Shown here: piece after piece, positions 1 to 42,198 of the stretch
How positions within the stretch are numbered: position 1 is the stretch's first letter
Layout: each line of letters opens with the position of its first letter
Virus record (IMG/VR): IMGVR_UViG_3300025327_000577
Span: 1 to 42,581 of that record
DNA length: 42,581 nt
Strand: one strand, 5' to 3'
From: a virus
Program-made: the position numbers and the translations under genes
The notes under the pieces: model-generated
What the model was told of the DNA's origin: nothing
Databases searched by the model: none
The model's input: only the letters and a program-made list of their open reading frames with translations

Positions 1-479
1 CTCAAGGAAATGTTGCGGCAATAGGCACACAATCTGTGGTGCGGACCTTCGGACAAAAATCGTTTCCGGCAGCACATGCAGGACCTGGTGGAGATGGTTC
101 GCCCTGGGCCAGGCCGAGGCGCGCGCGGTGCAGATGGCTGGGCCGGTATATCGGCCATGCGCCGAGCCATGAGACGAGAGGGCTCGCGCAGCTTTTCGAG
201 TCGGGCGAGCACCGCCGTCGGTGTCCGGCCGAGGCGGCGCGCGATTTCTGCGATCGGCATACCTGCGGTGCGCCAGATGCTGGCTGAGGCATTCTCGATG
301 CTCGTCCAAGAATTTCCTCGCGCGCCACGTTTCAGGCCGATGCGCCTGGCTTTCTCGTTGACGGCAAGCTCGGTGCGATGCAACCGTGCGGCGATTTTTG
401 CGGGACCGATATTTGCCGCGGATAATCGGCGCAAGACACACACGTCGCGCTCACTCCAGCCGAGTTTGGCTGCCATCAT
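1..479 (-). CDS. HTH/zinc-finger protein, early-left copy (3' end beyond window edge)
   Basis: The start is the ATG at 479, which overlaps the stop of the upstream gene as ATGA. At least 159 codons are present and the frame is open at position 1. The N-terminus (about residues 5-55) looks like two short helix-turn-helix repeats of the SANT/GcrA kind ('LGWSERDVCVLRRLSAANIG', then 'IAEIARRLGRTPTAVLARL'). The C-terminus carries a zinc motif, CMCC...HHRLCAYCR. The same architecture and zinc motif occur in the gene at 4036-4368, so the two are paralogs. If the window is circular and one G at the joint is redundant, the protein ends LSPYAI, matching VSPHAL in the paralog. Probably a DNA-binding regulator; exact role unknown. 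Confidence 0.75.
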   Translation of the reverse strand, partial: MMAAKLGWSERDVCVLRRLSAANIGPAKIAARLHRTELAVNEKARRIGLKRGARGNSWTSIENASASIWRTAGMPIAEIARRLGRTPTAVLARLEKLREPSRLMARRMADIPAQPSAPRAPRPGPGRTISTRSCMCCRKRFLSEGPHHRLCAYCRNISL

Positions 480-745
480 GCCGCCTTCGCCGTCGTCTTG
501 ATCGGCTCAGCGCGTTCGATCTGGGACTCGAAGGGCCTGGCGCTGAAAAGTTCTTCTAGCTGCGCCAAAAATTGCGCGTCGGCACGCATCTTCTGTTCCA
601 TGTAGGCGAGCACTCGGATCAGTTCGTCGAGACTGCGTCCCTCCTCTTTCACGGATTGGACGATTTCGGTGGCGTCGCGCATACCGTGGCAATGGAAATC
701 CACCGCCATCTCCGCGAGCTCGCGGGCGCTAATCGTGCGCAGCAT
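476..745 (-). CDS. Hypothetical early protein, 89 aa
   Basis: Unrecognised helical protein of 89 residues with an acidic middle. It contains one H-x-C-H cluster (FHCHGM, about residues 18-22), too little to call a zinc site. It overlaps the CsrA-like gene upstream by 17 bp and the HTH/zinc gene downstream by 4 bp (ATGA), so translation is probably coupled in the PL operon. The overlaps and codon use support it as a gene; function is not visible. Confidence 0.6.
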
Positions 746-974
746 CGGCCGTCTCCCGCTTTTCGTCCTGGATGCGCGCGTAGACTTCCTCGCGGTGCAC
801 CGGAACGCTCTTCGGCGCGTTCACACCGATGCGCACCTGGTTGCCGCGGATGCTCAGCACCGTGACGGTGATGTCGTCCCCGATGTTCAGCGTCTCTCCG
901 ATACGTCTCGTCCTTGTTCCGGCTTGCATCGCTTCGGCAGCGTCTTTTGCCATCTGTTCTGGTGTCATTTCCAT
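729..974 (-). CDS. csrA: CsrA/RsmA-like translational regulator
   Basis: An 81-residue protein whose residues about 23-72 match CsrA closely: [20 protein letters not shown] then [20 protein letters not shown], including the conserved [11 protein letters not shown] stretch and the VHREEVY C-terminal strand. CsrA dimers bind GGA motifs in mRNA leaders and block or stabilise translation. Unlike cellular CsrA (about 61 residues starting near MLILTRR), this one has an N-terminal extension of about 20 residues ([20 protein letters not shown]). The ATG at 974 is preceded by an AG-rich Shine-Dalgarno (ACGGAGA). It lies in the leftward operon, 20 bp from an attC-like site. It may remodel host mRNA translation or time phage genes; which is not known. 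Confidence 0.85.
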
Positions 975-13158: not shown

Positions 13159-13240
13159 AGCTGGTCGTAGTATCCCTCAAGGGAAAATCGCCAGCATCCA
13201 GACCGAACCCGGCCGCCTGATTCAGGGCCGGGTTTTTTAT
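13159..13240 (+). ncRNA. Short leader RNA ending in a strong terminator (tR'-like)
   Basis: Nested stems GCTGG (13160-13164)/CCAGC (13191-13195) and CCCT/AGGG (13174-13183) precede the terminator stem AACCCGGCC (13206-13214)/GGCCGGGTT (13226-13234) and a T run. This resembles lambda's 6S leader that Q reads through. The 5' end is estimated from the promoter. Confidence 0.55.
13206..13240 (+). terminator. Intrinsic terminator upstream of tRNA/late genes
   Basis: 9-bp GC-rich stem, 11-nt loop, TTTTTTATT tail. Late transcription must pass it, implying antitermination. Confidence 0.85.
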
Positions 13241-13321
13241 TGCCGATTTTCCGCCGCCCCCGGCCACCACACCCATCGTCTCAGCGACACGTCATGGCGT
13301 CAGGCGGGCGGCGTTTGTTTC

Positions 13322-13396
13322 AGCGGGATAGATCAGAGGTAGATCGCTGCGCTCATACCGCAGAGGCCGCTGGTTCGACCCCAGCTCCCGCTTCCA
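13322..13396 (+). tRNA. tRNA with anticodon CAT (Met, or Ile2 if modified)
   Basis: 75 nt, complete cloverleaf: acceptor AGCGGGA/TCCCGCT, D stem GATC/GATC, anticodon stem CTGCG/CGCAG with loop CTCATAC (anticodon CAT), variable AGGCC, T stem GCTGG/CCAGC with TTCGACC. CCA is encoded (13394-13396). All stems pair perfectly. The discriminator base is T, which is unusual. It lies between two intrinsic terminators in the late leader. Confidence 0.9.
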
Positions 13397-13401
13397 TTCG
13401 T

Positions 13402-13427
13402 AACCCGGCCGCGTGCCGGGTTTTTTG
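13402..13427 (+). terminator. Intrinsic terminator directly after the tRNA
   Basis: Stem AACCCGGC (13402-13409)/GCCGGGTT (13415-13422) with a TTTTTT tail; nearly the same stem as the terminator at 13206. It defines the 3' end of the tRNA unit and is a second barrier before the late genes. Confidence 0.8.
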
Positions 13428-13441
13428 TTGCATGGAATTAT

Positions 13442-13657
13442 ATGCCGACCGGAAAAGTTAAGTGGTTCAACACCGCCAAGGGGTTCGGATTCATCGCGCC
13501 CGATGATGGTAGCGCGGATGTGTTCGTGCATTACAGCGCGATCGAGATCAGGGGCTACAAACAACTGAACGAGGGCGATCGGGTGGAGTTCGACGCGGCG
13601 GCGGGGCCGAAGGGATTGCAGGCCGGACGCGTGCGGCCGCTCGCCGCTCGCGCCTGA
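13442..13657 (+). CDS. Cold-shock domain protein (CspA family)
   Basis: 71 residues: [15 protein letters not shown] (RNP1) and DVFVHYSAI (RNP2), [10 protein letters not shown], full length for the family. GGA lies 6 bp before ATG 13442. An RNA chaperone; at the head of the late genes just after two terminators it could act as a transcript antiterminator, as CspA-family proteins do in E. coli. The phage role is inference. Confidence 0.9.
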
Positions 13658-13664
13658 CGCCGCC

Positions 13665-14396
13665 GTGCTGCAAATCGGCGTCAAGGCCGATGTCGATGCG
13701 GTCCGGATGAAACTGCTGTATTTGCAGAACGAGGGCGTGCGCAAGGCCGCCGCGGTGGCGCTGAACGATACCGCCTTCGCCGCCCGCAAGGACGTGCAGT
13801 GGTTTATCGGGCAGGTGTTCGATAGACCGACGCCCTGGACGCTGAACGCTCCCTGGGTGGAGAAGGCGCGGCCTGCGCACCTGGCGGCGATGGTGACGTT
13901 GCAGGGGAAAAACTGGCGCCATCGCGCCTCGGCGTTTGAATATCTCGGCCCGCATATGGATGCCGGCCCGCGATCGCCGAAACGCATGGAGAAGCTGCTC
14001 GCCGATCGCGGACTGCTCGGCGCGAACGAATATCTGGTGCCGTCCAAGTTCCAGCCGCTCGATCAATACGGCAACGTGCCGCGCAGCGTCGTGCAGAAAA
14101 TCCTCGCCAATCTGCAAGCACACTTCGACCCGCACCAGCATACGCCATGGGGCGGCGCGCGCGGTGGCAAGAAGAAGGGCGAATATTATTTCACCCGCCG
14201 CGGCGTGCGCGGCGCGCGACTGACCGCGATCTGGCGGCGCCTCTCGGACAACAACGCCGTGCCGGCGTTCATCGTCGTCACGGGCGCGCCGCGTTACCGC
14301 AAGCGTCTGCCATTCGAGAAAATCGTGCAGGCCGCCGTCGCCCGCGTGTGGCCGGTGGAGTTCGAGCGCCAGGTGCTCGCGGAAATCAGGCGCTGA
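13665..14396 (+). CDS. Minor tail protein Z-like
   Basis: 243 residues from a GTG start at 13665. The sequence (KAAAVALNDTAFAARKDVQW, later FDRPTPWTLNA and WRRLSDNNAVPAFIVVTG) fits the prophage minor tail Z family, which is needed for DNA injection or tail completion in lambda. The position before the portal is usual in phages of this type. Moderate confidence in the family name. Confidence 0.55.
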   Translation: MLQIGVKADVDAVRMKLLYLQNEGVRKAAAVALNDTAFAARKDVQWFIGQVFDRPTPWTLNAPWVEKARPAHLAAMVTLQGKNWRHRASAFEYLGPHMDAGPRSPKRMEKLLADRGLLGANEYLVPSKFQPLDQYGNVPRSVVQKILANLQAHFDPHQHTPWGGARGGKKKGEYYFTRRGVRGARLTAIWRRLSDNNAVPAFIVVTGAPRYRKRLPFEKIVQAAVARVWPVEFERQVLAEIRR

Positions 14397-14663
14397 ATGA
14401 ACTGGCGGCCGATTTCCTCCGGCGCGTGGGAAGCGGAGAATTATCGCATCGCGGCCGTCCGGCTCGAGGGCGAATCTATCTACGGCCTATTCGCGCCGCC
14501 GCTGCCTGAGAAAATATTCGAGGGCCGATTAAAAATCCGCTACGCACTCGGCGAGCTGGTGCCGCAGCGGCGCGCGCTGCTCGGCCATTTCGCCACGCCC
14601 GAAGCGGCGCGCGCGGCCGCGGAGCGGCATCGCGATGCGCCCGCTGGCTTAACCACGAACTGA
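14397..14663 (+). CDS. Hypothetical protein, 88 aa
   Basis: 88 residues starting directly after the previous stop (TGA-ATG). It has a beta-rich start (RIAAVRLEGESIYGLFAPPL) and a C-terminal Ala/Arg helix. No family recognised; probably a head or connector accessory by position. Confidence 0.5.
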   Translation: MNWRPISSGAWEAENYRIAAVRLEGESIYGLFAPPLPEKIFEGRLKIRYALGELVPQRRALLGHFATPEAARAAAERHRDAPAGLTTN

Positions 14664-14677
14664 TCGGAGATCGAAAC

Positions 14678-14911
14678 ATGGCGGGTATCACGTTGGCGCA
14701 GGCCGAGGCGAAGCTCGCCACCTGGATGGCGGCGCTGGACAAAATCGCCGTGGGGCAGAGTTACAGCATCGCCACCGGCACCGGCAGTCGGTCGGTTAAT
14801 CGGGCCGATCTGGCGGAGGCGCAAAAGCAAGTCGAATACTGGGACCGGCAGGTCAAGCGGCTGACGCGCGGCGGGATCAGTGTGCGCGGTGTCACAATCA
14901 TGCGCGGATAA
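14678..14911 (+). CDS. Head-tail connector candidate (gpW/DUF6148-like)
   Basis: 77 residues: GITLAQAEAKLATWMAALDK, then SYSIATGTGSRSVNRADLAE and helix VEYWDRQVKRL. This small alpha-beta pattern before the portal gene matches gpW/DUF6148 proteins that complete the head. GGAG lies upstream of ATG 14678. Confidence 0.7.
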   Translation: MAGITLAQAEAKLATWMAALDKIAVGQSYSIATGTGSRSVNRADLAEAQKQVEYWDRQVKRLTRGGISVRGVTIMRG

Positions 14912-14921
14912 GGCGCACTTA

Positions 14922-16745
14922 ATGGCGCGCAAAGTCGAAGTCCGGTCGAATTTATTCGACCGGCTGGTGGAGATCGTCGATCCGGTGCGCGCCGCGCGCC
15001 GATTCCAGGCGCGCGCCATGCTGTCGCTCGCCGGTGGCTATGTTGGGGCGTCGAAAAAACGCCGTTCGATCGGTCAGTGGAAAACCACCGGCGGCAGCGC
15101 GGATGCCGATCTACTGCCGGATCTGGCGACACTGCGCGAGCGCTCGCGCGACCTGAACCGCAATTCGCCGATCGCCTGCGGCGCGATCAACACGGTGGTG
15201 ACGAGCACCGTCGGGCCCGGCCTGAAAATGACGAGCGTCATCGACCGCCGGACGCTGAAACTCGACGATGCGACGGCGGACGCCTGGCAGGACCGCGCCG
15301 AGATGCTGTGGTCGTTGTGGGCCGATACCACCGAGTGCGATGTGACGCGCACGCAGGTGCATGCCGAGATGCAGTCGCTGGCGTTCCGCTCGACGCTCGA
15401 AAACGGCGATATGTTTTCGCTGCTGCCGACGATTCCGCGCCGCGGCTCGCCGTTCGATTTGCGTATCCTGATGATCGAGGCCGACCGGGTTACGAACCCG
15501 GGCGGGCGGTCGGATACCGATGCGCTTGCCGGTGGCATCGAGATCGATGAGCACGGGGCCCCGAAAAATTATCATATCCTCAAGTCGCACCCAGGCGGAC
15601 TGAGCCGCCGCGCCCGTGAGTGGGATGTGATCCCGGCCTTCGGCGAAAAAACCGGACGGCGCAACGTACTGCATCATTTCGACCGCCGGCGCGTCGGACA
15701 AACGCGCGGCGTGCCGTATCTCGCGCCGGTGGTCGAGTCGCTGAAACAACTCGAGGATTACACCGAAGCTGAATTGATGGCGGCGGTGGTCTCCGGCATG
15801 TTCACGGTTTTCATCAAATCCGAGGATGGCGACGGCAGCCTGGGTCCGATGATGCCGACCGGCGAGACCGGCGGCAAAACCTCGGACGAGGATTACCGGC
15901 TCGGCAACGGCGCGATTATCGGACTGGGCCAGGGCGAGGCTATCGAGACCGCAAATCCCGGCCGGCCGAATACCGCCTTCGATCCGTTCGTCAAGGCGAT
16001 TCTGGATCAAGTCGGAGTCGCGCTGGAATTGCCGCGCGAAGTGTTGATTAAAAGTTTTATGGCTTCGTATTCCGCATCGCGCATGGCGATGCTCGAGGCC
16101 TGGCGGTTTTTCAAGACGCGCCGCGCCTGGCTGGTGCGGTCTTTTTGTCAGCCGACCTACGAGGCATTCATCACCGAGATGATTGCGCGCGGGATGCTGT
16201 CCGCGCCGGGATTTTTTACCGATCCGGTGGTGCGGAATGCGTATCTGTGTACCGAATGGATCGGGCGCCCCATGGGCCATATCCAGCCGCTGCAAGAGGC
16301 GAACGCCGCCCAGGTGCGCGTCGAAACCGGCCTGTCGAGCCTGACCAAGGAGATCTCCGAATACGATGGCGGCGATTTCGACGACGTGCACCGCCAGCGC
16401 GTCAAGGAAATGAAACGCCGCCGCGAGGATGGCGTCGAACGCGCCGCGCCGGAGACGACAAAACCGGAGAACCCGAACCCGCCGAAACCGGACGAGGATG
16501 CGGAAGAAGAAAAAGACAAGCAGCAAGAGGCCGATCGTACACTGCTGCGTGCCGCTGTGGCGGCCGCCATCGGCGCCGCCAACCGCGAATCGCCGGCGCC
16601 GGTGGTCAATGTCGCGCCGCCCGCGATTACGGTCGAGGCGCCGGTGGTCAACGTCACGCTTCCCGGCCGGCGCGGCGTGAAGGACGTTAAATACAATCTG
16701 GACGGCAGCATTTCTCAGATCGTCGAACAGGAAGGTGACGCATGA
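14922..16745 (+). CDS. Portal protein (lambda family)
   Basis: 607 residues from ATG 14922. Typical lambda-portal segments: NSPIACGAINTVVTSTVGPG, DRVTNPGG, GVPYLAPVVESLKQLEDYTE and ASYSASRMAMLEAWRFFKTR. The C-terminal about 120 residues after KEMKRRRED are low complexity (Pro/Glu/Lys-rich) with two VVNV repeats and a KDVKYNLDGSI tail. Forms the dodecameric channel through which DNA is packaged. Confidence 0.9.
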   Translation: MARKVEVRSNLFDRLVEIVDPVRAARRFQARAMLSLAGGYVGASKKRRSIGQWKTTGGSADADLLPDLATLRERSRDLNRNSPIACGAINTVVTSTVGPGLKMTSVIDRRTLKLDDATADAWQDRAEMLWSLWADTTECDVTRTQVHAEMQSLAFRSTLENGDMFSLLPTIPRRGSPFDLRILMIEADRVTNPGGRSDTDALAGGIEIDEHGAPKNYHILKSHPGGLSRRAREWDVIPAFGEKTGRRNVLHHFDRRRVGQTRGVPYLAPVVESLKQLEDYTEAELMAAVVSGMFTVFIKSEDGDGSLGPMMPTGETGGKTSDEDYRLGNGAIIGLGQGEAIETANPGRPNTAFDPFVKAILDQVGVALELPREVLIKSFMASYSASRMAMLEAWRFFKTRRAWLVRSFCQPTYEAFITEMIARGMLSAPGFFTDPVVRNAYLCTEWIGRPMGHIQPLQEANAAQVRVETGLSSLTKEISEYDGGDFDDVHRQRVKEMKRRREDGVERAAPETTKPENPNPPKPDEDAEEEKDKQQEADRTLLRAAVAAAIGAANRESPAPVVNVAPPAITVEAPVVNVTLPGRRGVKDVKYNLDGSISQIVEQEGDA

Positions 16746-17146
16746 CCTTGCTCGTCCCGAATAACGGCGAAGGCGATTTTCTCGCCTACGCACTCAACAA
16801 GAGCGCGCCGGAGAACGTCGTCCTGCGGCTCTGCCAGAACAACATCACTCCATCCGAGACCGATGTCGCGGCGACCTACACCGAGGCGACCTGGACCGGA
16901 TATGCCGCGCTCACGCTCACCGGCGCGAGCTGGACGATCGTCGAAGGCGCCCCGACCGAGGCAAGTTACGCGCAGCAGATTTTCACCTCTACGGCCGGCG
17001 CGCAGAGCCAGAATAATTACGGCTACTATCTGACGCGCGCCACCAGCGGGCGTATCGCCTGGGCGGAGCGTTTCTCGGACGGGCCGTATCAGATCGTGAA
17101 TAATGGCGATCAAATCAAAGTCACTCCGAAAATCACGCTCGACTGA
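16742..17146 (+). CDS. Structural protein of unknown function, 134 aa
   Basis: 134 residues, beta-rich (TWTGYAALTLTGASWTIVEG, NNYGYYLTRATSGRIAWAER, KVTPKITLD). This pattern is common next to portal genes in marine and proteobacterial siphophages and is probably a capsid or virion-surface protein. Overlaps the portal gene by 4 bp. Confidence 0.6.
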   Translation: MTLLVPNNGEGDFLAYALNKSAPENVVLRLCQNNITPSETDVAATYTEATWTGYAALTLTGASWTIVEGAPTEASYAQQIFTSTAGAQSQNNYGYYLTRATSGRIAWAERFSDGPYQIVNNGDQIKVTPKITLD

Positions 17147-17155
17147 AGGTGAGCC

Positions 17156-17389
17156 ATGACAGGAATCCGGAAAGGCATGTGGGTGAAATACAAGGGCAAG
17201 CTCGGCATCGCCAACTCGATCGACGGCGATACCGCCGAGGTGCATCTGGTCGATGAGCGAGGATTGACTACGCTCGTCATCCCGGCCGCGGCCGTCGCCT
17301 CGCTTACGCAAGCGGCATTCGCGGATATCCCCAAGCCGCGGCGGCCGGATGCCGGGCTCGCGCGCAAACTCGGATATGAGGTGATCTAG
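17156..17389 (+). CDS. Hypothetical protein, 77 aa
   Basis: 77 residues with an SH3-like start (MWVKYKGKLGIANSIDGDTA, EVHLVDERG). GGTGAG precedes ATG 17156. A small beta-barrel by appearance; no family assigned. Its TAG overlaps the GTG start of the next gene. Confidence 0.55.
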   Translation: MTGIRKGMWVKYKGKLGIANSIDGDTAEVHLVDERGLTTLVIPAAAVASLTQAAFADIPKPRRPDAGLARKLGYEVI

Positions 17390-18075
17390 TGGCCCTGCCA
17401 ACCGCAAGCAACATTCGCACGCCGGACGACGCAGGCAACCTCGGCAAGAGGGTCCGCACGCACACGCGCGTAGTCGGCTCGGATACCGTCCATACGCATT
17501 ACATGTGGAACGAGGAAACCATTCCGTACACGTTCTCAGGAAACTATCAATTTCACTCCGGCACATTGTCGGTGCAGGCGTCGGCTCAGAACGGGACAAC
17601 GACCGGGTTTCTGTGGCTGTTCATGCCGATCGGAGCATCGTTGAAATGCGGTATTCACCGCGCGAAAGTCCAAACAACCATCACGACGAATTTATCCGCG
17701 CCCACGGCTCCGCGACTTGTGACGCAGCGGTTCACCTACACCGGGACGCCCTCGGGGGCCGCGATCAGCCCATGCAAATCACGCAGCACTTATCCGGCGG
17801 CTGCTTGTAGCGTGCGTACGGCCTCGACCGGCATGAGCGTGACGCTGGAGCAGATCGCGCGCTCGACGCTGCCGCCGGTCACCGCCGGAACAGCAGGATG
17901 GACTTTTGCCATACCTTATCGCGACGAGCTGGCGGCGAACTCTCATTCCGCGCACGCCGACGAATTGGCATTCGCGGCGGGTGAGGGACTGGTGTTCTAC
18001 CAGCCGGACGCCGGCACGGCGGCGGACACCAGAAAGGCCCAGATGGACTGGGAAATTTCCGAGTTTGAAGAGTAA
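17389..18075 (+). CDS. Putative virion protein, 228 aa
   Basis: 228 residues from GTG 17389 (TAGTG overlap). Beta-rich, Thr/Ser/Ala-rich (HTHYMWNEETIPYTFSGNYQ) with an acidic end. Lies in the structural block; probably a head fibre or decoration. No recognisable domain. Confidence 0.5.
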   Translation: MALPTASNIRTPDDAGNLGKRVRTHTRVVGSDTVHTHYMWNEETIPYTFSGNYQFHSGTLSVQASAQNGTTTGFLWLFMPIGASLKCGIHRAKVQTTITTNLSAPTAPRLVTQRFTYTGTPSGAAISPCKSRSTYPAAACSVRTASTGMSVTLEQIARSTLPPVTAGTAGWTFAIPYRDELAANSHSAHADELAFAAGEGLVFYQPDAGTAADTRKAQMDWEISEFEE

Positions 18076-18093
18076 CCACAGAGAGGCCATGAA

Positions 18094-18474
18094 ATGAAAA
18101 AACTCACAGCAGTATTCTTGTTTGTCGCCGCGATACTCACCGCCCCCCTGGCGTCGGCGCAATGGTTCACGAACGGCATCCAGACCAATCCGACCGCAAA
18201 CCAGATCGTCGCGGATACAGGGGCCGTCGGCGACGGCGCCGGCCACGATTTCGATGTCTACGTGTCATCGACCGTTGCGGTGGCGATCGTCGTCGAGTGG
18301 CGCAACGCAGCGAACGACGCCAACGTTTTCGCCTACATCATTCCCGTTCCCGCCAACGGCTTCGCCTACTGGACCTCGCGCGGGGCGCTTGCATTTCAAG
18401 GCAACGAACGGGTGCGGCTGCGCATGAACTCAGGGGTGACCGGCAGCGTTCAGGGCGCGATCAACTTTTTCTGA
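18094..18474 (+). CDS. Signal-peptide-bearing protein in the head operon
   Basis: 126 residues with a classic signal peptide (MKKLTAVFLFVAAILTAPLA then SAQ, cleavage near residue 23) followed by a beta-rich domain (VAIVVEWRNAANDANVFAYI). A secreted protein among head genes is odd: it could be exported during infection or be a lysogenic-conversion gene. AGAGAGG upstream of ATG 18094. Confidence 0.55.
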   Translation: MKKLTAVFLFVAAILTAPLASAQWFTNGIQTNPTANQIVADTGAVGDGAGHDFDVYVSSTVAVAIVVEWRNAANDANVFAYIIPVPANGFAYWTSRGALAFQGNERVRLRMNSGVTGSVQGAINFF

Positions 18475-18481
18475 GGCGAAC

Positions 18482-18700
18482 ATGGCGCGCAAAAAAATCT
18501 GTGATTGCTGCAGTAAACCCGGGGCGAAACTGACCCAGGTGCAAATCCTGGTATTCGGCGACATCGAACCGGATCGCTTCACTGAGACCACAGCCGAGCA
18601 GGATTTGTGCGATACCTGCCGCGATGGCGAGTGCGACAAGATGTTGACTGCCGCGAAGGTGTCGCACCACGCCAAGATCAAGGAGAAGGCCAGTGGCTGA
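18482..18700 (+). CDS. Small zinc-binding protein, 72 aa (tandem copy 1)
   Basis: Starts ICDCCSKPGA and later has LCDTCRDGECDK: two Cys pairs forming a probable zinc ribbon. The next gene has the same frame of residues (ICDCCGKPGA ... LCDACRDGECDK), so the pair arose by tandem duplication. Function unknown. Confidence 0.6.
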   Translation: MARKKICDCCSKPGAKLTQVQILVFGDIEPDRFTETTAEQDLCDTCRDGECDKMLTAAKVSHHAKIKEKASG

Positions 18701-19160
18701 ACAGCGAATTTGCGACTGCTGCGGTAAACCCGGCGCCCGCGAGACCATCGTCGGTTATGTCGTTGTCGGGGAGGTGATCGAAGGGCGGCCCACCGGAACC
18801 TCGTTCGGAGCCGATCTCTGCGATGCCTGCCGCGACGGCGAATGCGACAAGCTGCTCGCCAAGGCACGGGATCAGCAGAAGCGGCACGCGCCGATCCACA
18901 AGAAGATCATCGCCATCAAGGACGATCTCGCCGCGCTGCTCCAGGAGAAGGACAAGGCCGTGCGGGCCCGCGACGAGATCGAGGAGCAGAACACCCGTGC
19001 GCTCCCAGCGACGCGAGATGCGCCTGCCCTGCGCCAGTGGGCCTCTCAGGACGCCAGGCAACAGCATGAAAAATTGTCCGTGACCGTAAACGATATGATG
19101 AGCGAAATCGCCGCGAAACATCGGCGCATCGCGGAGCTGAACGAATCCGCCAGGAGTTAG
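18693..19160 (+). CDS. Zinc-ribbon plus coiled-coil protein (tandem copy 2)
   Basis: 155 residues from GTG 18693. The N-terminal 50 residues duplicate the previous gene's zinc ribbon. The C-terminal 100 residues are a long coiled coil (HKKIIAIKDDLAALLQEKDK, EIAAKHRRIAELNE). Perhaps an oligomerised virion or assembly protein. Confidence 0.6.
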   Translation: MAEQRICDCCGKPGARETIVGYVVVGEVIEGRPTGTSFGADLCDACRDGECDKLLAKARDQQKRHAPIHKKIIAIKDDLAALLQEKDKAVRARDEIEEQNTRALPATRDAPALRQWASQDARQQHEKLSVTVNDMMSEIAAKHRRIAELNESARS

Positions 19161-19164
19161 GCCG

Positions 19165-20037
19165 GTGACTGAACGTAACTGGCAGCTCTTCGACAGTTTT
19201 CCGGTTTCCCTGGCGCAGGAACCGCAGGCCGCTCCGGCGGAGCAGGGCTGGACGCTCAACGATAGTTTCCCGGTTTCCCTGGCGCAAACATTCTCGGCAC
19301 TACAGGCGGAGTGGTCGGCGGCCTACTGGGGCCTGTTCGAGCCCGCATTCAACGCCGCGCAGAGCGGCGGCGCGGTGTATACCTATGTCGCGTCCGGCGG
19401 GGCGACATCGAGCGGCGCGGCCGCGGTGGCGAAGGTCAAAGTGCCGGCGGTTTCGGGCGGCACGCAAAGCAGCGGCCTGGCGCCGGTCGCCAAGACAAAG
19501 AATTTTGTCGCCGCCGGCGGTGCGGTATCTGGCGGCGCGGCAGGTCTGGCGAAAACCACGGCAATTATCGCAATCGGCGGCGCCGTCGTCGGCGGCGCCG
19601 CGGACTTCGCGAAAATCAAAATTTACGCAGGCGCCGGCGGCGCGCAAACCGCCGGCGCGGCGCTGACGCAATTTATCTCAGGCGGTGCTGCGCAGGAATT
19701 TGTCTATATCGCCAGCGGCGGCGCCGCGATCTCCGGCGCAGCCCAGACGATTTACGAATCGGCCGCAGTATCGTTGCCATCCGGCGATGGCCGGACCTGG
19801 CGGCGTCTCAGCGCCGAACCGCTCCCGCGCACACGCGGATACGCGGCACGCGGCGGGCTGCACGCGGGAGGGCGCGCGCAGAGCGGTTTTATTGCGGGGC
19901 CGGAGGTTGATATTTACGACTACACCGCCACCGGCGGCGCGCGTGCGGGCGGCGCGGCGGAAATTCTCTATATGGACGCCGGGAAAATTCGCCGGCGCCG
20001 GCAGGCCGAGTTGCTGCTGCTGCTCGAGGCCGCATGA
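19165..20037 (+). CDS. Gly/Ala repeat protein, putative virion fibre
   Basis: 290 residues from GTG 19165. NWQLFDSFPVSLAQ and GWTLNDSFPVSLAQ are a 30-residue N-terminal duplication. Then come about seven repeats of roughly 22 residues of the type SGGA..SGAA..AK (residues about 70-190), and a Lys/Arg-rich end. Regular beta-strand repeats suggest a fibrous or glycine-rich structural protein. No family recognised. Confidence 0.55.
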   Translation: MTERNWQLFDSFPVSLAQEPQAAPAEQGWTLNDSFPVSLAQTFSALQAEWSAAYWGLFEPAFNAAQSGGAVYTYVASGGATSSGAAAVAKVKVPAVSGGTQSSGLAPVAKTKNFVAAGGAVSGGAAGLAKTTAIIAIGGAVVGGAADFAKIKIYAGAGGAQTAGAALTQFISGGAAQEFVYIASGGAAISGAAQTIYESAAVSLPSGDGRTWRRLSAEPLPRTRGYAARGGLHAGGRAQSGFIAGPEVDIYDYTATGGARAGGAAEILYMDAGKIRRRRQAELLLLLEAA

Positions 20038-20243
20038 CGCCCTCCGAACGCGAGAGAGCTTTCCGCCGCGCGCAGCTTGACGTGCTCAGGCTGCGCACCG
20101 ATATCCAGCGCGGCATGGCAACCGAGATCACGCAGCTCCTGAAGAGCGCGCCGCCCGCGGCCGCGTCCGGCGTCGCCGTAATCACTCATCGCAGCCGCGC
20201 AATCCGGCGGCGCGAGGAAGAATTCCTGTTGCGTGCGGCATAA
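20034..20243 (+). CDS. Hypothetical basic helical protein, 69 aa
   Basis: 69 residues, Arg-rich helices (ERERAFRRAQLDVLRLRTDI). ATGA overlap with the previous gene. No family recognised. Confidence 0.5.
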   Translation: MTPSERERAFRRAQLDVLRLRTDIQRGMATEITQLLKSAPPAAASGVAVITHRSRAIRRREEEFLLRAA

Positions 20244-20266
20244 CCGCCATTCCAAGGAGCCAAACG

Positions 20267-21175
20267 ATGCGTGTGATCGACGTGCTGAATGCCCCTTGGG
20301 CCATCGTCCCGGACAAGTTGCGGGAGATTCAGGCGATCTACGCCACGCATCTGCGCGGCGAGAAGATCGACATCAAGGGTATCGAGGCCAAGCTCGGCAA
20401 GCCGCTCGTCAACAACGAGCAGGGCTATGACACGGTCGATGGGGTGGCGGTAATCCCGATCGACGGCATCATCAGCAAGCGCATGAACTTGTTCTCGCAA
20501 ATCAGCGGCGGGGCATCGACCGAGTTGATCGGGCGCGATATCCGCGCGGCGCTCGCGGACCCAGATGTGCATTCGCTGCTGCTGCAAGTGGATTCGCCCG
20601 GCGGTACGGTGGATGGGACGCAGGTGCTGGCACAGGCGATTCACGGCGCACGCGGCAAAAAACCCATCGTGACCTACGTGGACGGCATGATGGCGAGCGC
20701 GGCCTACTGGATCGGCTCGGCGGCGGATGCGATCTATATCGGCGCCGACACGGTGCAGGTCGGCTCGATCGGCGTGGTCGCGAGCCATACGGATTATTCG
20801 CGGCGCGAGGAAATGCTCGGCGTGAAAACCACCGAGATATTTGCCGGCAAATTCAAGCGCATCGCGTCCAGCCACAAACCCCTGTCCGAGGACGGTAAGG
20901 GGTACATTCAGGAAATGGTTGATTATCTCTATTCCGTTTTCGTGGCCGATATTGCCAAACAACGCGGCGTGGACGCGGAAACGGTACTCAAGAACATGGC
21001 CGATGGACGCATTTTCACCGGCCAGCAGGCGGTCAGCGCGGGCCTCGTGGACGGTGTCGCCACGATGGACCTCCTGATCGCCGATCTCAACGCGGGCACG
21101 ATCGGCCAGCAGGGCCGCAAGGCGCGTCTGGCCGCGCTGAATGCCGCACTCCAATCGGCGCCGGTGCGCGCCTAA
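20267..21175 (+). CDS. Head maturation protease (S49/SppA-like)
   Basis: 302 residues. VAVIPIDGIIS start, LLLQVDSPGG, catalytic Ser144 in VDGMMASAAYWIGSAAD, VGSIGVVASH, and a Lys candidate in FAGKFKRIASSHKPLSE. Cleaves scaffold and portal during prohead maturation, as lambda gpC does. The scaffold candidate is the next gene. AGGAG precedes ATG 20267. Confidence 0.9.
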   Translation: MRVIDVLNAPWAIVPDKLREIQAIYATHLRGEKIDIKGIEAKLGKPLVNNEQGYDTVDGVAVIPIDGIISKRMNLFSQISGGASTELIGRDIRAALADPDVHSLLLQVDSPGGTVDGTQVLAQAIHGARGKKPIVTYVDGMMASAAYWIGSAADAIYIGADTVQVGSIGVVASHTDYSRREEMLGVKTTEIFAGKFKRIASSHKPLSEDGKGYIQEMVDYLYSVFVADIAKQRGVDAETVLKNMADGRIFTGQQAVSAGLVDGVATMDLLIADLNAGTIGQQGRKARLAALNAALQSAPVRA

Positions 21176-21198
21176 CCCAACATGATGGAGAAACGAAC

Positions 21199-21717
21199 AT
21201 GACCATGACAGTTGCATCGTTTAAGGCGGAATATCCCGCCATCGCCGAGGCCTTGCTGGCCGAAGGCCGCAACGGCGCGAACGCCGAGGGTATCGAGAAA
21301 GGTAGGACCGAAGGCATCGCGAAGGGCGCCGAGGCCGAGCGCGCGCGCATACGAGGCGTGCTGGATCATCGTATGGCCGGTCACGAGGAATTGATCGACC
21401 GGCTGGCGTTCGACGGCACAACCTCGCCGGACGCCGCCGCGGCGCAGATTCTGAAGGCCGAGAAGGCCGCGCGCGTGACGACGCTCGGTAATCTGCTGGA
21501 GGACGGCAAGGTCCCTGCGCGGGTAAAGCCATCGAGCTCCATCGAGGATCGAGGCGCGGAAAGTGACAGCCATCTCTCGGTGGAGGATCGCTGCAAGGCC
21601 AAGTGGGACAAGGACTCCAATGTGCGCGACGAGTTCATCGATTTGGCGTCGTACACCGCCTTTGAAAAGGCGCAGGCGGCGGGCCAGATCAGAATTCTCG
21701 GCAAGAAGTCCGCTTAA
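21199..21717 (+). CDS. Capsid scaffold candidate
   Basis: 172 residues, helical and Glu/Ala-rich (GIEKGRTEGIAKGAEAERAR, IRGVLDHRM), with a C-terminal EDRCKAKWDKDSNVRDEF. The composition and the place between protease and cement/capsid genes match scaffold proteins. GAGAAACGAAC precedes ATG 21199. Confidence 0.65.
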   Translation: MTMTVASFKAEYPAIAEALLAEGRNGANAEGIEKGRTEGIAKGAEAERARIRGVLDHRMAGHEELIDRLAFDGTTSPDAAAAQILKAEKAARVTTLGNLLEDGKVPARVKPSSSIEDRGAESDSHLSVEDRCKAKWDKDSNVRDEFIDLASYTAFEKAQAAGQIRILGKKSA

Positions 21718-21725
21718 CGTCTCGA

Positions 21726-21775
21726 CGAAATCGCCGCGCTTCGCGGCGAAACACGCGCCCGGTGCGGCGTTTTTT
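21726..21775 (+). terminator. Hairpins and T-run between scaffold and capsid genes
   Basis: TCGCCGCG/CGCGGCGA stem (about 21729-21747), then GCGGCGTTTTTTC. The T-run follows a second, weaker stem. Could be a partial terminator or an RNA-processing site that sets capsid-gene dosage. Confidence 0.5.
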
Positions 21776-21807
21776 CATTCCCAATGAACCCGAATGAGGA
21801 CATTTCC

Positions 21808-22719
21808 ATGAAGATCATGAAGAGCATTTTGGTGGCTTTCGGTTTGCTGGCTGGGTGTCTGGCGTTGTTCGCCGGCGCCCAGGCTGGCCCGGAGCCGTTG
21901 TCGCTGGAGTTCGTGCAGACGGCGCTGTTGCCGTCGCTTGCGATCTTCGGCATGACCACGCTGGCGGCAAACTCGAACCGCACGTTCGAGATCGGCAGCC
22001 GGAACGAATTTCCGGTCATCGCCGCGGATATCATTTACGAGGGCGCGGCCATCGGTCTGGTTATCGGCACCGGCCATGCCCGGCCGCTGGCGGCTACCGA
22101 TCGCTTCTCCGGCTTCGCCGAGGCCAAGGCGGATAATTCGGCCGGCGCCGCGGCGGCGATCAATGTGCGCGCGGTCGAATCCGGCAAGATCCAGCTTGCC
22201 GTCACGGGTGCGGTCATCACCGATATCGGCCAACCGGTCTATGCCACCGATGACAACGCCTTTACGTTCAGCCCGGTGGCGGCCGTGTTCGTCGGTTTCG
22301 TGCACCGGTTCGTGAGCACCGGCGTGGTGGTGGTCGCGTTCGACGCCCTGAACTATCGCGATCCCTACGGTGACTACACGATCCGCGAAACGATCTCGGC
22401 CAACAAGACGCTGGACATCGAGGACAACGGTAAGATTTTCTTCATCGATACCGACGCCACGGTCACCACGCTGCCGGCGACGGCCACACCGGTCAACGCC
22501 AAAATCGTGAATATCGGCGCCTATGGTGCGGTGGCTGTCAACCTCAGCCCGCAGGCGGTGGACAAGGTGCAGGGTCCGGATTTGCCCGGCACCGACAACA
22601 AGGACCTCATCAACACCAAGGCCACCGCCAAGCGCGGCGACTTCGCCGTGCTGACCACGGGTGACGCCAATGGTCCGGTGGTGGCCGAGTTGCGCGGGAC
22701 CTGGGCGACCGAGGTCTAA
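21808..22719 (+). CDS. Capsid cement/decoration protein with N-terminal signal-like segment
   Basis: 303 residues from ATG 21808, chosen because GAGGA lies 7 bp upstream; ATG 21784 is an alternative. Residues about 5-40 form a hydrophobic leader (ILVAFGLLAGCLALFAGAQA) containing an LAGC lipobox-like site. The rest (EFPVIAADIIYEGAAIGLVI, DRFSGFAEAKADNSAG, YATDDNAFTF) is a DUF2190-like cement protein. A leader on a cytoplasmic decoration protein is unusual. Confidence 0.7.
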   Translation: MKIMKSILVAFGLLAGCLALFAGAQAGPEPLSLEFVQTALLPSLAIFGMTTLAANSNRTFEIGSRNEFPVIAADIIYEGAAIGLVIGTGHARPLAATDRFSGFAEAKADNSAGAAAAINVRAVESGKIQLAVTGAVITDIGQPVYATDDNAFTFSPVAAVFVGFVHRFVSTGVVVVAFDALNYRDPYGDYTIRETISANKTLDIEDNGKIFFIDTDATVTTLPATATPVNAKIVNIGAYGAVAVNLSPQAVDKVQGPDLPGTDNKDLINTKATAKRGDFAVLTTGDANGPVVAELRGTWATEV

Positions 22720-22775
22720 GTCGGGCGATCCGATACCGAACTTTATCGAAACGAATTAACATCGAGGACTAAACA

Positions 22776-23726
22776 ATGGACGAAAGCATTCTGTCGAGCC
22801 GCGCCGTTATCGGCGCGTATTATGCACGGCTCGAGGCGAGCCCGGGCCTGGCCTGGGTCAACGGCGTCTCGAATATGTTCAACTCTGACCAGGTAAGCGA
22901 AACCTATCCGTTCCTGGGCCAATCGCCGGCCATGCGCGAGTGGATCGGCGGTCGCCAGCCGAAGGGCTTGCGCGACAATTCGCTCATGATCGTCAACAAG
23001 CACTACGAGGCCACGCTGGAAATCGCCGTGCGCGACGCGCGACGCGACAAGACCGGGCAGATCGTCGCCCGGGTGAACGAGTTCGCCGACCGCGCGCTCA
23101 CCCATTGGGCAAGCCTGCTCTCCACGCTGATCCTGGCCGGCACCTCGACCGTGTGCTACGACGGGCAATATTATTTCGACACCGATCACAGCGAAGGCGA
23201 TTCCGGCACGCAGGATAACGACATCGTGGTGGACATCTCGCTGCTGCCGGCGGCGGTGCACGGCGTAGTCACGGCACCCTCGGTCGAGGAGATGCAGCAG
23301 TCCATCCTTAAGGGCATCACTCAGGTCCTGTCGTTCAAAGACGACCGCGGCGAACCGCTGAACGAGGGCGCGCGCGAGTTCCTGGTGCTGGTGCCGGTCG
23401 GTCTGTACATGACCGCCGTCGCTGCGTGCAGCACTCTCACCACCGCCGCGTTGCAGCAGAACCTCAACCCGAACCTGGTCGCGGGTCTGCGAGTGGACAT
23501 ACAGATGGATGCGCGTTCGACATGGACCGACTCGTTCGCGGTATTCCGCACCGACAGCCCGATCAAGGGGCTCATCCGGCAGCAGGAGACCGAAAACGAG
23601 ATGAAGGCGAAGGCCGAGGGATCGGAGTTCGAGTTCGATAACGACGCCTGGCAGTTCGGCATCGACTCCTGGCGCAACGTCGGCTACGGTTACTGGCAGC
23701 GCGCCTGCTACGTGACGATGACCTAA
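22776..23726 (+). CDS. Major capsid protein (Mu gpT family)
   Basis: 316 residues: KGLRDNSLMIVNKHYEATLE, ARRDKTGQIVARVNEFADRA, YYFDTDHSEGDSGTQ and SPIKGLIRQQETENEM are characteristic of Mu-like gpT major head proteins. The combination with a lambda-type portal shows a mosaic head module. A strong terminator follows. Confidence 0.9.
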   Translation: MDESILSSRAVIGAYYARLEASPGLAWVNGVSNMFNSDQVSETYPFLGQSPAMREWIGGRQPKGLRDNSLMIVNKHYEATLEIAVRDARRDKTGQIVARVNEFADRALTHWASLLSTLILAGTSTVCYDGQYYFDTDHSEGDSGTQDNDIVVDISLLPAAVHGVVTAPSVEEMQQSILKGITQVLSFKDDRGEPLNEGAREFLVLVPVGLYMTAVAACSTLTTAALQQNLNPNLVAGLRVDIQMDARSTWTDSFAVFRTDSPIKGLIRQQETENEMKAKAEGSEFEFDNDAWQFGIDSWRNVGYGYWQRACYVTMT

Positions 23727-23755
23727 GTTATTGCCGAATAATCTTTCCGGTAGCG

Positions 23756-23788
23756 ATGCAGGGCGGCTTCGGCCGCCCTGCATTTTTT
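23756..23788 (+). terminator. Strong intrinsic terminator after major capsid gene
   Basis: Perfect 12-bp stem ATGCAGGGCGGC/GCCGCCCTGCAT with a TTCG tetraloop and TTTTTT. Probably limits read-through from the highly expressed capsid gene into the tail genes. Confidence 0.9.
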
Positions 23789-23800
23789 GAGGGACAATCA

Positions 23801-24109
23801 ATGAAAACTTTCAAAGTCATCGGCCACGTCGCGGCGGTGCACGCGGGGCTGGTGAAGCTCGGCGACGATCAGGCACGTCCGCGCAAGCATCTGCTCAGAC
23901 CGCGCGGCGACGGCGTGTACGAAGTGCTCAGACCGATCCAGTTCAAGCAGGGCGAACAGTTCGGCTACGATGGGGAATTTCCCAAGGCCATGGCGACCGT
24001 CATCATGACGACGGAACAGATCGAGAAAGCCGCGGATGCCAAGGCCAAGACCGAGAAGAAATCAAAGACCAAAGGCCACGTGGCCGAGGAAGACGACAAA
24101 CTCATTTAA
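23801..24109 (+). CDS. Head completion candidate, 102 aa
   Basis: Starts at ATG 23801 (GGGACAATCA upstream), not at 23756, which would translate through the terminator. 102 residues: a KTFKVIGHVAAVHAGLVKLG beta start and a Lys/Glu-rich C-terminus. By position a head-tail accessory; family unknown. Confidence 0.55.
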   Translation: MKTFKVIGHVAAVHAGLVKLGDDQARPRKHLLRPRGDGVYEVLRPIQFKQGEQFGYDGEFPKAMATVIMTTEQIEKAADAKAKTEKKSKTKGHVAEEDDKLI

Positions 24110-24118
24110 CGGATCTCC

Positions 24119-24415
24119 ATGGCCATCGAAGACGACACCGACCGCGCGACATTTTTCGCGACGGACGAGCACGGCGAGACGGTCGTTATCGCCGGCGGCA
24201 ACGTCAACGGCATTTTCGATAACGCCTATTTCAGCATTGCCACCGGCAACGCCGATGTCGCATCGATCAAGCCGGCGTTCATCTGCCTGGCGGCCGATGT
24301 CTCGGCGATCGTCATCGGCACCTCGACGCTGATCCGATTCGGCACCACGTACAGAATCGTCAACCAGGAACCGGATGGCACCGGCATGACGGTGCTGATT
24401 TTGGAGAGGCAATAA
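24119..24415 (+). CDS. Head-tail joining protein (FII-like)
   Basis: 98 residues. ATFFATDEHGETVVIAGGNV start and FGTTYRIVNQEPDGTGMTVL end; size and pattern suit the head-tail joining family (lambda gpFII fold). It directly precedes the tail terminator candidate. Confidence 0.6.
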   Translation: MAIEDDTDRATFFATDEHGETVVIAGGNVNGIFDNAYFSIATGNADVASIKPAFICLAADVSAIVIGTSTLIRFGTTYRIVNQEPDGTGMTVLILERQ

Positions 24416-39001: not shown

Positions 39002-39195
39002 TGTCAAATATCCACGTCCAACATATCCCAAGTTATTGATTTTAAAGTCACCAATAAATCATAGAATTTTGGACAAAATGCGTCTAATCTATTGTTTTTG
39101 CTGGAAAACAACACTGATTCGTAATCAGTAGGTCCGCGGTTCGAGTCCGCGCACCGGCACCATTTGTCCAATATTCTGTCTGCGCTGTCCAATAT
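39002..39195. other. attP: tRNA-Thr(CGT) 3' half with integrase arm-type repeats
   Basis: The core at 39111-39162 is the 3' half of tRNA-Thr: anticodon stem ACTGA/TCAGT with loop TTCGTAA, T arm CGCGG-TTCGAGT-CCGCG, acceptor end and CCA. There is no D arm, so it is the phage copy that restores the host gene on integration. Arm-like TGTCCAATAT occurs at 39165 and 39186 (21 bp apart), inverted at 39066-39075 (ATTTTGGACA), with variants at 39002 and 39015. Confidence 0.85.
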
Positions 39196-39212: not shown

Positions 39213-40178
39213 TCAGCGGGCGGGCTTCACGCGGCGTGGGCCGCGGCGGTAGATGCGGCTGGTGGTGCGGGGGTCGTCGTGGCCGAGGAGCTCCGAGGGG
39301 TTTTCGGCGCGATGTGCCGCGAAGGCGCGGAGATCGTGGAAATGGAATCGTTCGGCGAGTTTGCCGCTCGATATCGCCTTAGCCATGATGCGTTGCCACA
39401 GCGATTCGAATCCGCTCACGGTGTAGGATTGGCCTTCCTGATTGGCGATCAGGTAGATCGAGCGCACGGAACCGCGCAATGATCGGGCGCGCGCAATGGC
39501 ATCGCGTAAATTATCTGTCCATTCAATAAGCAAGCGCTTGCCGGTTTTCCCGGTTTCGATGTAGACACCTTCGTCGCGGATATGCTCGCGCTCATTGAGC
39601 CGCAAGATGTCGCCGAGTCGCAGGCCGGTGAGACGGGCGATATCCATGGCGCAGCGAATTACCGGTGTAGCGGTCTCATAGACGGCTGCGAATTCATGAT
39701 CCTCGATGTGGCGCCGGCGCGGGCGTTCAGGATTGCGGGTGACCTGGCGGCAAGGGTTGTCGGTCGCGAGCCCCCATCTGATGGCGTAACGAAAGATGCG
39801 CGAAAGTAATGCGACCTCCCGGTTCGCTGCGATTCGCGGTCTCATGTCCATGTAAGCATAAATATCCTGGGAGGTAATTTCGCCCGGTTCCATGTGGCCG
39901 AAAACACGTTTGAGCGGAATGATTTCGCGCGCGTTGTTCTGCTGGGTTCGCGGTGCTTTGGTCGGCGTGACTTCGCGCATGTGGCGCTCGATGATCGCGG
40001 CCATGCCGCCGGCGATTGGCGAGGCGTTGATATCGGCATATTTTTTGAGTGCAATTGCACGATCGCGCGCGAGCCAGATCCATTCGCCATTTCGGGCGAC
40101 GAAATAATAGGCGTTGTGGCGAAAATAAACCCGCTCTGGTAAGTCCCGGCGGTGCTGGCGGCGGCGGCCCATCGGCAT
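39213..40178 (-). CDS. int: Tyrosine integrase
   Basis: 321 residues. The catalytic set is visible: Arg187 (TGLRLGDIL), Lys about 211-214 (TGKTGKR), His281-x-x-Arg284 (FHFHDLRAF), His300 (LLGHDDPRTT) and Tyr310. The N-terminal core-binding domain includes AREIIPLKRVFGHMEPGEIT. It is the last gene of the leftward transcript, 51 bp from the tRNA-Thr attP core. No IntI-specific insertion is seen, so it is not an integron integrase. Confidence 0.95.
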   Translation of the reverse strand: MPMGRRRQHRRDLPERVYFRHNAYYFVARNGEWIWLARDRAIALKKYADINASPIAGGMAAIIERHMREVTPTKAPRTQQNNAREIIPLKRVFGHMEPGEITSQDIYAYMDMRPRIAANREVALLSRIFRYAIRWGLATDNPCRQVTRNPERPRRRHIEDHEFAAVYETATPVIRCAMDIARLTGLRLGDILRLNEREHIRDEGVYIETGKTGKRLLIEWTDNLRDAIARARSLRGSVRSIYLIANQEGQSYTVSGFESLWQRIMAKAISSGKLAERFHFHDLRAFAAHRAENPSELLGHDDPRTTSRIYRRGPRRVKPAR

Positions 40179-40951: not shown

Positions 40952-41047
40952 GGCGATCTTCGGAAGTACGGATAACACTAGTTATGGCGCTCGCCAATCC
41001 CCGAAAACGCCAGAAATATAGGCATTTCACGAGCCGACGAACGGTAG

Positions 41048-41075
41048 TTGCATATACACGCAATGCGTGTATAGT
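41048..41075 (+). promoter_or_regulatory. Promoter with 21-bp perfect palindromic operator
   Basis: -35 TTGCAT (41048-41053), 16-bp spacer, -10 TATAGT (41070-41075). A palindrome centred on A41063, arms 41053-41062 and 41064-41073, fills the spacer. A second dyad GTAGTC-ACC-GACTAC lies at 41084-41098. Suggests autoregulation by the XRE protein at 41375. Confidence 0.7.
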
Positions 41076-41130
41076 CTGAGTCGTAGTCACCGACTACACC
41101 GCGCCTCGGGAACAGGGGCTGGAGAATAAA

Positions 41131-41382
41131 ATGAGCGACTTCACACCAAAATCTGCTGTAGAGGCGATGGGCTGCAAATATCCACAAGTTACGCTCGCTC
41201 GCGCTATTGGAGCGACCGGAACACATACTGAGGAGGCGCTCGCTGCATGGTTCAGCGAGGGTTTTTCCGCCTACCACGAAATGGATCGGACTCGTGGTGG
41301 AAATTCTGATGACGCGGACGTGGTGCGCGCCCGCGCCGCTGGTTACGAAACCGCTATGGAGTCGGAAATTATCGATGACTAA
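41131..41382 (+). CDS. Acidic partner protein of an XRE-type pair, 83 aa
   Basis: GGAG 7 bp before ATG 41131. 83 residues, acidic, MSDFTPKSAVEAMGCKYPQV. Overlaps the XRE gene by 8 bp and shares its promoter, an arrangement typical of toxin-antitoxin or regulator pairs. No toxin motif recognised. Confidence 0.6.
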   Translation: MSDFTPKSAVEAMGCKYPQVTLARAIGATGTHTEEALAAWFSEGFSAYHEMDRTRGGNSDDADVVRARAAGYETAMESEIIDD

Positions 41383-41596
41383 CCATCCAAACAGGGGCCG
41401 CGGAACACCGGCGGCGTCGCCAACACCAGAGAGAGTCCGAGCCGCCCGCGAGGCGGCCGGACTCTCGCAGTCGTCCGCCGCCGAGCTTATCCACTCCGGC
41501 TTGCGTGCGTGGCAGGAGTGGGAGGCCGGCAATCGGCGGATGCATCCTGCATTTTGGGAACTGTTCAAATTAAAATCCTCGTCAAGAGCGCCATAA
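41375..41596 (+). CDS. XRE/HTH regulator ending in an attC site
   Basis: 73 residues from ATG 41375. HTH: RVRAAREAAGLSQSSAAELI, then LRAWQEWEAGNRRMHPAFWE, a common DNA-binding fold. Its TAA stop (41594-41596) is part of the left core of attC1 (CCATAAC), the usual layout of an integron cassette gene. Confidence 0.75.
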   Translation: MTNHPNRGRGTPAASPTPERVRAAREAAGLSQSSAAELIHSGLRAWQEWEAGNRRMHPAFWELFKLKSSSRAP

Positions 41597-41651
41597 CAAG
41601 GCGCTGGAGAGGGACGCGCCTTACGGCGCGCCCCTCAGCTTTTCGTTATGC
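41591..41651 (+). repeat. attC1-like site
   Basis: Left core CCATAAC (41591-41597), right core GTTATGC (41645-41651). Inner arms GCTGGAGAGGGACGCGCC and GGCGCGCCCCTCAGC pair with extra bases on the left, apex TTAC. Resembles Vibrio VCR-type attC. Confidence 0.75.
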
Positions 41652-41825
41652 CGTAGGGTTTCCGACATCAGAATCAAGTTCAATCCTGAATTGGTCGCTC
41701 AGTCCAGACGCTTCGCGTTTAACGCTAGTTACTTTTGGTGCAGACACCATCTGCGCATTCAGCCAGTATTGAATGGCCTCGATCATGGTGTCTTCGTTCA
41801 GAATCAAATCGTTTGAACCTTTCAT
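41646..41825 (-). CDS. Cassette gene, 59 aa, hypothetical
   Basis: MKGSNDLILNEDTMIEAIQY from ATG 41825 (GAGGA 5 bp upstream), 59 residues, ends GNPTA. Its stop is the TTA of the attC1 right core. Unknown function; short acidic protein with a helix (EAIQYWLNAQMVSAP). Confidence 0.55.
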   Translation of the reverse strand: MKGSNDLILNEDTMIEAIQYWLNAQMVSAPKVTSVKREASGLSDQFRIELDSDVGNPTA

Positions 41826-41843
41826 GGTGTCCTCAGCCTCTCG

Positions 41844-41928
41844 GCATAACAAGCAGTTCAAGCCGACGCCGTTAAGCGTGGCACCCTTTCAATCACCGTG
41901 GCGGCGCGACTTAACCGCGGCGTTAGCA
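41844..41928 (+). repeat. attC2-like site
   Basis: Left core GCATAAC (41844-41850), right core GTTAGCA (41922-41928). Left inner arm GTTCAAGCCGACGCC is nearly the classical attC L'' sequence; right arm GGCGGCGCGACTTAAC. An extra unpaired C lies in the left arm. Confidence 0.8.
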
Positions 41929-42113
41929 CGATCCAAGTTGCATGATGGGCACCTTGTTCGCCCGTCTTTGTATAATCTCCATCCGCACTTTCTGGCCTCT
42001 CTCCGGCAGTAGCTTCGGTTAGGCCCAGTAAACTGTTCGCGTGGCGGTTTCTCGTGTTGGTGCCTTGCGAGAAAATCACACTGAACGTTGAGCACGTAGC
42101 ATTCTGCAAGCAT
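41889..42113 (-). CDS. Cassette gene, zinc-ribbon-like, 74 aa
   Basis: AGAGG 8 bp before ATG 42113. CYVLNVQC...CRREARKCGWRLYKDGRTRC...C: Cys pattern and GWRLYKDGR-RCPSC ending typical of small phage/cassette zinc-ribbon proteins. Its last 11 residues and stop lie inside attC2, so excision at attC2 would change its C-terminus. Confidence 0.6.
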   Translation of the reverse strand: MLAECYVLNVQCDFLARHQHEKPPREQFTGPNRSYCRREARKCGWRLYKDGRTRCPSCNLDRANAAVKSRRHGD

Positions 42114-42115
42114 CG

Positions 42116-42198
42116 TTCCAACCTCTTAATCGAGCCGACCGGGATAGTCGGCGCCATTCTAATCTTTCGTGGCCGGGCGGCTCATTAAGCCGTTAGGG
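42116..42198 (+). repeat. attC3-like site
   Basis: Left core TTCCAAC (42116-42122), right core GTTAGGG (42192-42198). Arms CTTAATCGAGCCG and CGGCTCATTAAG pair with one extra C on the left. Start codon of the minus-strand gene at 42113 lies 3 bp away. Confidence 0.75.

Follow-up and report, generated by a model that had tools for sequence, protein, structure and literature searches.

A phage record with attC sites near both ends

The window analyzed here is an entire IMG/VR record, listed as linear and 42,581 bp long, and carries phage genes for a helicase-methylase, terminase, head protease, major head protein, tape measure and tail. Minus-strand genes run from 2574 to 3 at the left end and from 42565 to 39213 at the right; joined ends would make a single early region of the two runs. 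The left run includes a D5-like transcriptional regulator that runs off the record (3..479, minus strand; phrog_323, E = 1.5e-14) and a csrA-like gene (729..974, minus strand; PF02599, E = 2e-22; phrog_9500, E = 1e-27), and the right run includes a tyrosine integrase gene, int (39213..40178, minus strand). The integrase is of the phage type and not IntI, matching PF00589 (51 bits) and phrog_1 (E = 1e-38) without a TIGR02249 match, and a TIGR02249 search for an integron integrase across the whole record at E ≤ 10 likewise returned no match, as the preliminary description of this DNA had supposed in naming a phage-type integrase as the only recombinase.

An attP, formed by the 3' half of a tRNA-Thr(CGT) including CCA, lies at 39111..39162 on the plus strand (partial tRNA match of 24.8 bits, D arm missing), between the late genes and int. 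Late genes and int are expected at opposite ends of an integrated prophage. The position of attP therefore indicates a temperate phage captured here in its excised or packaged form, and it follows that what lies to the right of int is phage DNA and not flanking host chromosome. The 49-mer of this attP occurs exactly in one gammaproteobacterial genome and with one mismatch in three more, two of which are intI-positive.

Neither a repeat at the record ends nor a contig spanning them was found, and circularity is thus unproven. Two other contigs from the same phage span approximately 3631-28810 and 9478-24283 (computed from their lengths), and the attC array described below lies outside both. Pattern searches of IMG/VR gave no relatives for the integrase or for two early proteins that flank the array, and no sister phage that has or lacks the cassettes was found. 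By blastn, the array region had no match among annotated phages, and among plasmids it matched only through an HTH domain and one further weak hit. Elsewhere in the record, a helicase-DNA methyltransferase fusion (4739-7129) has 47 relatives in IMG/VR, from 100% to 45% identical, some of which lie on contigs that also carry attC pairs (L004, L025 and L027), and a phage-encoded tRNA with anticodon CAT is present at 13322-13396 (64.6 bits).

Four attC sites

We searched the record with a covariance model (CM) built from 65 attCs of integrase-linked chromosomal and plasmid integrons, in which 91% of pair cells are standard pairs. The training DNA consisted of the flanks of strong TIGR02249 integron integrases in gammaproteobacterial genomes and of plasmid class 1 integrons, and its attCs were preselected by a structural scanner, which biases the model toward canonical attCs. 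A second scorer, a sequence profile from the same training set, ignores loop length and treats R'' and R' as unlinked. It took the place of a structural scanner scoring R''-R' pairing within one attC, which missed attC2; arrays need not obey such pairing.

With default filters, the CM identified four attCs, all on the plus strand, and no others up to E = 10, the E-values for the record being rough: attC1 at 41591-41651 (CM 38.1 bits, E = 1.5e-6; profile 48.9 bits), attC2 at 41844-41928 (CM 35.8 bits, E = 5e-6; profile 53.7 bits), attC3 at 42116-42198 (CM 24.9 bits, E = 0.0016; profile 36.3 bits) and attC4 at 994-1056 (CM 25.0 bits, E = 0.0015; profile 41.8 bits), the last between the csrA-like gene and a minus-strand gene at 1051-1293. 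The preliminary description had reported three attC-like palindromes at the positions of attC1 to attC3. All three are real by both scorers, although the count was incomplete, since attC4 at the opposite end of the record had been missed. It had also proposed that covariance scores at background level would speak against its reading, and the scores obtained, from 38 to 25 bits, are not at that level.

The profile found no further site of at least 6 bits in the record, and in 60 first-order Markov copies of the window its maximum was 18.0 bits and never reached 20. Essentially all of its matches in integrase-linked loci fell on the expected strand, and across 689 kb of viral DNA other sequence scored at most 12 bits, except for L004, L025 and L027. 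It is not fully sensitive, in that it found no attC in P12002L, where PMC9892861 reports two. The CM detected the sites of MW202573 and PH101, which are outside its training set, and the attCs of TJE1 and PH101 received 24-37 bits from the same model, a range like that of the window. When the CM was run with its filters off, attC2 and attC3 were lost as full sites, probably due to the length limits of that mode.

All four attCs possess R'', L'', L' and R' boxes and a spacer of 5 nt, and in each of them position 4 of L'' is extrahelical. The bottom strand of attC1 is predicted to fold at −20.4 kcal/mol (z = −5.1), and the bottom strand is predicted to fold better than the top for attC1, attC4 and, by 0.5 kcal/mol only, attC2, whereas for attC3 the top strand is slightly favoured. 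Core identity among the four is 48-64%, compared with 51% for random attCs. No Rfam family matched at the attC positions, and a search with the exact attC2 pattern yielded nothing from IMG/VR and two genome contigs. Over 56 nt, attC4 shares 91% identity with an attC of another viral contig, L148. By sequence and predicted folding geometry, the four are confirmed as genuine integron attC sites.

Cassette boundaries and cassette genes

IntI cuts at G/TT, so the R'' of the attC closing a cassette should complement the R' that opens it. Among 92 adjacent pairs in chromosomal arrays, complementarity was 7/7 in 80 and 6/7 in 11, with random pairing giving 7/7 in 8%; viral arrays showed 7/7 in 69 of 89 pairs, where 9.6 were expected. 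Two cassettes in the window follow this rule perfectly: the R'' of attC1 complements GTTATGGC at 40981 at 7/7 (cassette 1), and the R'' of attC2 complements the R' of attC1, GTTATGCC at 41645, also at 7/7 (cassette 2). The R'' of attC3 matches the R' of attC2 at only 5/7, a level seen once in the 92 chromosomal pairs, and the boundary of cassette 3 therefore appears lost or changed and the cassette not intact. Across the record ends, attC3 and attC4 match at 6/7; continuity from attC3 to attC4 is suggested by this match together with gene direction. The rule shows cassette structure and cannot alone tell which end of an attC was crossed over. Shared cassettes were compared for which attC travels with a cassette gene, but pairs were few and the pattern used to find attCs biases the outcome.

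The start of cassette 1 is GTTATGGC at 40981-40988, exactly where a boundary-like sequence had been noted earlier, and this is its single plus-strand copy in the record. It forms part of an inverted R-box pair, GGATAAC-ACTA-GTTATGGC (40970..40988, plus strand), that marks the left border of the array. Inverted GTTRRRY motifs are reported at the borders of integrase-less cassette arrays (CALINs) in PMC9892861.

Cassette 1 holds two plus-strand ORFs. The first (41131..41382) encodes 83 aa and has no family match, and the second (41375..41596) encodes a 73-aa HTH protein (HTH_31, 28.4 bits) whose TAA stop lies inside the R'' of attC1. The HTH protein also matches MqsA (22.6 bits) and the VC1465 family (36.1 bits against a cut-off of 70) below their cut-offs. 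The VC1465 family comprises Xer recombination activation factors, and the match to it is sub-threshold. Distant homologs of this protein occur in four chromosomal attC arrays, and its closest relatives in three genome loci are not beside attCs. Cassette 2 carries a 59-aa gene on the minus strand (41646..41825), antisense to its attC, with its TAA stop inside the R' of attC1. The ORF of cassette 3 (41889..42113, minus strand; 74 aa) is likewise antisense, matches phrog_926 (E = 2e-8) and enters attC2 with its 3' end; a codon-based gene finder made no call for it, and a search of 369 gammaproteobacterial genomes, run without a positive control, did not find it. The gene at 1051-1293 beside attC4 has its TAA stop inside the R' of attC4. 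No resistance gene was found among the cassette proteins.

Cassettes 1 and 2 are thus intact, and the earlier picture of attCs separating short genes is corrected on two points: the boundary of cassette 3 is not intact, and the genes of cassettes 2 and 3 read antisense. A cassette gene in the direction of its attC is usual but not obligatory. In the window, cassette 1 reads in the sense direction, and cassettes 2 and 3 and the genes on both sides of attC4, including the csrA-like gene that adjoins it, are antisense and thereby aligned with the minus-strand early genes of the phage.

Antisense genes in other viral arrays

To compare the window with other viral DNA, an attC consensus pattern was run on IMG/VR and returned 28 stretches, most with several attCs. 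An IntI1-like protein was present in one of them (L159), and the scanned flanks encoded terminase, RecE, Bet/RecT, DNA polymerase, tail, baseplate and integrase proteins as well as several proteins without a match. The viral group for counting included the window, L004, TJE1 and MW202573, and the control group consisted of integrase-linked arrays, L142, L159 and three array loci. Judged by the best confined ORF, antisense and sense cassettes numbered 43:13 (29 undecided) in viral arrays and 4:89 (17 undecided) in controls, with the grouping set by the analyst and L142, L159 and L161 removed from the viral group as chromosome-like before counting. Fisher's exact test on these counts gives 4e-21, a value that treats cassettes as independent though they are not. 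A second caller gave 58:18 for viral and 5:84 for control arrays, and a per-contig sign test on majority counts made by eye was weak (16/21, p = 0.03). The median gap from attC to attC was 290 bp in viral arrays versus 493 bp in integrase-linked or chromosome-like ones.

Several of the antisense ORFs are real genes, as indicated by family matches to N6/N4 methylases (L146, L148 and L164) and to PHROG families (L151, L153, L157 and L166). One antisense N6/N4 methylase cassette gene is 87% identical between L146 (9361-10008) and L164 (276-920), contigs that are otherwise unrelated. L149 resembles the window in layout, with int on the minus strand, a small plus-strand gene, four plus-strand attCs with antisense genes and then a minus-strand operon (8697-12910). 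In L004, which encodes terminase and NinB, attCs at 3861-3941 and 4257-4320 enclose a 101-aa antisense gene with a boundary of 6/7.

The antisense layout seems frequent among phages and infrequent in bacterial chromosomes. Phage CALINs themselves are already known from Qi et al. (2023; PMC9892861), who describe TJE1, PH101/H101, MW202573 and others and report that two attCs each from TJE1 and PH101 recombined with attI1. In the text consulted there, the direction of genes with respect to attC goes unmentioned, and within the openly available literature covered the antisense layout in most phage arrays examined is new. According to the GenBank annotations, genes in PH101 and MW202573 are antisense to the attCs, as in the window, and those of TJE1 are sense. 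The window further resembles the published phage CALINs in having at least two attCs without IntI in a phage genome (here three attCs within 0.6 kb and a fourth at 994-1056), in CM score range and in the inverted GTTRRRY at the border. It differs in that the phage is temperate, the array lies in the early/lysogeny region near int, and all cassettes but one are antisense.

Origin and maintenance of the array

These observations are, with high probability, best explained by a temperate phage whose early/lysogeny region carries a CALIN, with four co-oriented attCs that separate small genes. The likeliest mechanism of assembly would be a host-encoded IntI that acts in trans on single-stranded attC bottom strands, the first capture having used an attC or a secondary (attG-like) target carried by the phage. 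Cassettes that read with the early operon would be retained and expressed from a phage promoter rather than from the integron Pc promoter; we propose that antisense-reading cassettes are kept because the phage promoter, and not Pc, expresses the cassette genes. The phage might then carry cassettes to further integron-bearing hosts or swap them with co-resident phages. The idea in the preliminary description that such a phage is a vehicle for moving cassettes between cells is consistent with this scheme as an extrapolation from it.

Alternatively, the attCs might be genuine but dead, an integron block captured once by illegitimate recombination whose members are now fixed phage genes. We consider this distinctly less probable, though it is the most serious competitor. 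Decay of the cassette 3 boundary to 5/7, the several genes between attC3 and attC4 and the phage-type genes such as csrA around attC4 would all fit it, and illegitimate capture is suggested for some phage CALINs in PMC9892861. Against it, perfect boundaries and strong attC scores persist in cassettes 1 and 2, and two otherwise unrelated viral contigs share the 87% identical cassette gene. The near-random mutual identity of the attCs also does not suggest that a uniform array supplied them as one block, although many chromosomal arrays show as much diversity.

It is improbable that the right end derives from a chromosomal integron of the host, joined to the phage through assembly chimerism or at a prophage edge. 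Such an origin would account for the clustering of attCs in the final 1.6 kb of the linear record and for the lack of a second contig covering the array. However, attP is internal, between the late genes and int, and the genes on its far side are early genes of a phage-like kind; attC4 lies at the opposite end amid phage-type genes (csrA and D5-like); and antisense genes are a trait of viral and not chromosomal arrays, L149 even matching in layout. The surrounding phage genes and the internal attP also bear out the earlier placement of the array within a phage. Convergence on the attC form by phage terminators or RNA hairpins is more improbable still. In its favour, the palindromes are intergenic hairpins and attCs are believed to terminate transcription weakly (PMC9892861), but a terminator needs no unpaired left-arm bases, R boxes, GAC/GC motifs or 7/7 boundaries, and, L004, L025 and L027 apart, other sequence in the 689 kb of viral DNA stayed at or below 12 bits on the profile.

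The record extends the small set of phage-borne cassette arrays by one on a temperate phage, with attCs that withstand strict controls, and the orientation bias of 43:13 versus 4:89 suggests that phage arrays are more than scraps of host integrons. Tentatively, and with less than even confidence, phages may hold a cassette pool of their own that is distinct from the chromosomal one, composed of short cassettes with small phage genes and orphan methylases antisense to attC, fitting early operons and swapped between unrelated phages by host IntI. If this is true, host integrases would be a gene-shuffling tool for phages, and phages would offer a route for cassettes between bacteria by which small early genes, including anti-restriction methylases, might spread among unrelated phages. 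More speculatively, the antisense layout could make the recombinogenic strand the template for lagging-strand synthesis while the phage replicates.

Loot et al. (2024, as cited in PMC12901181) offer a lead only: insertion at attG sites, which are non-classical, would account for cassettes outside an integron platform. No attG site was identified in the window. With sedentary chromosomal integrons the window shares attC architecture and the cassette boundary rule, but it is without IntI, no attI was identified and genes are antisense. Compared with class 1 mobile integrons, the window is without IntI1 and no attI1 was identified, but attC2 shares the L box GTTCAAGCCG of class 1 cassettes, and the best plasmid blastn match of attC2, weak at E = 2, falls on an attC of an intI1 array.
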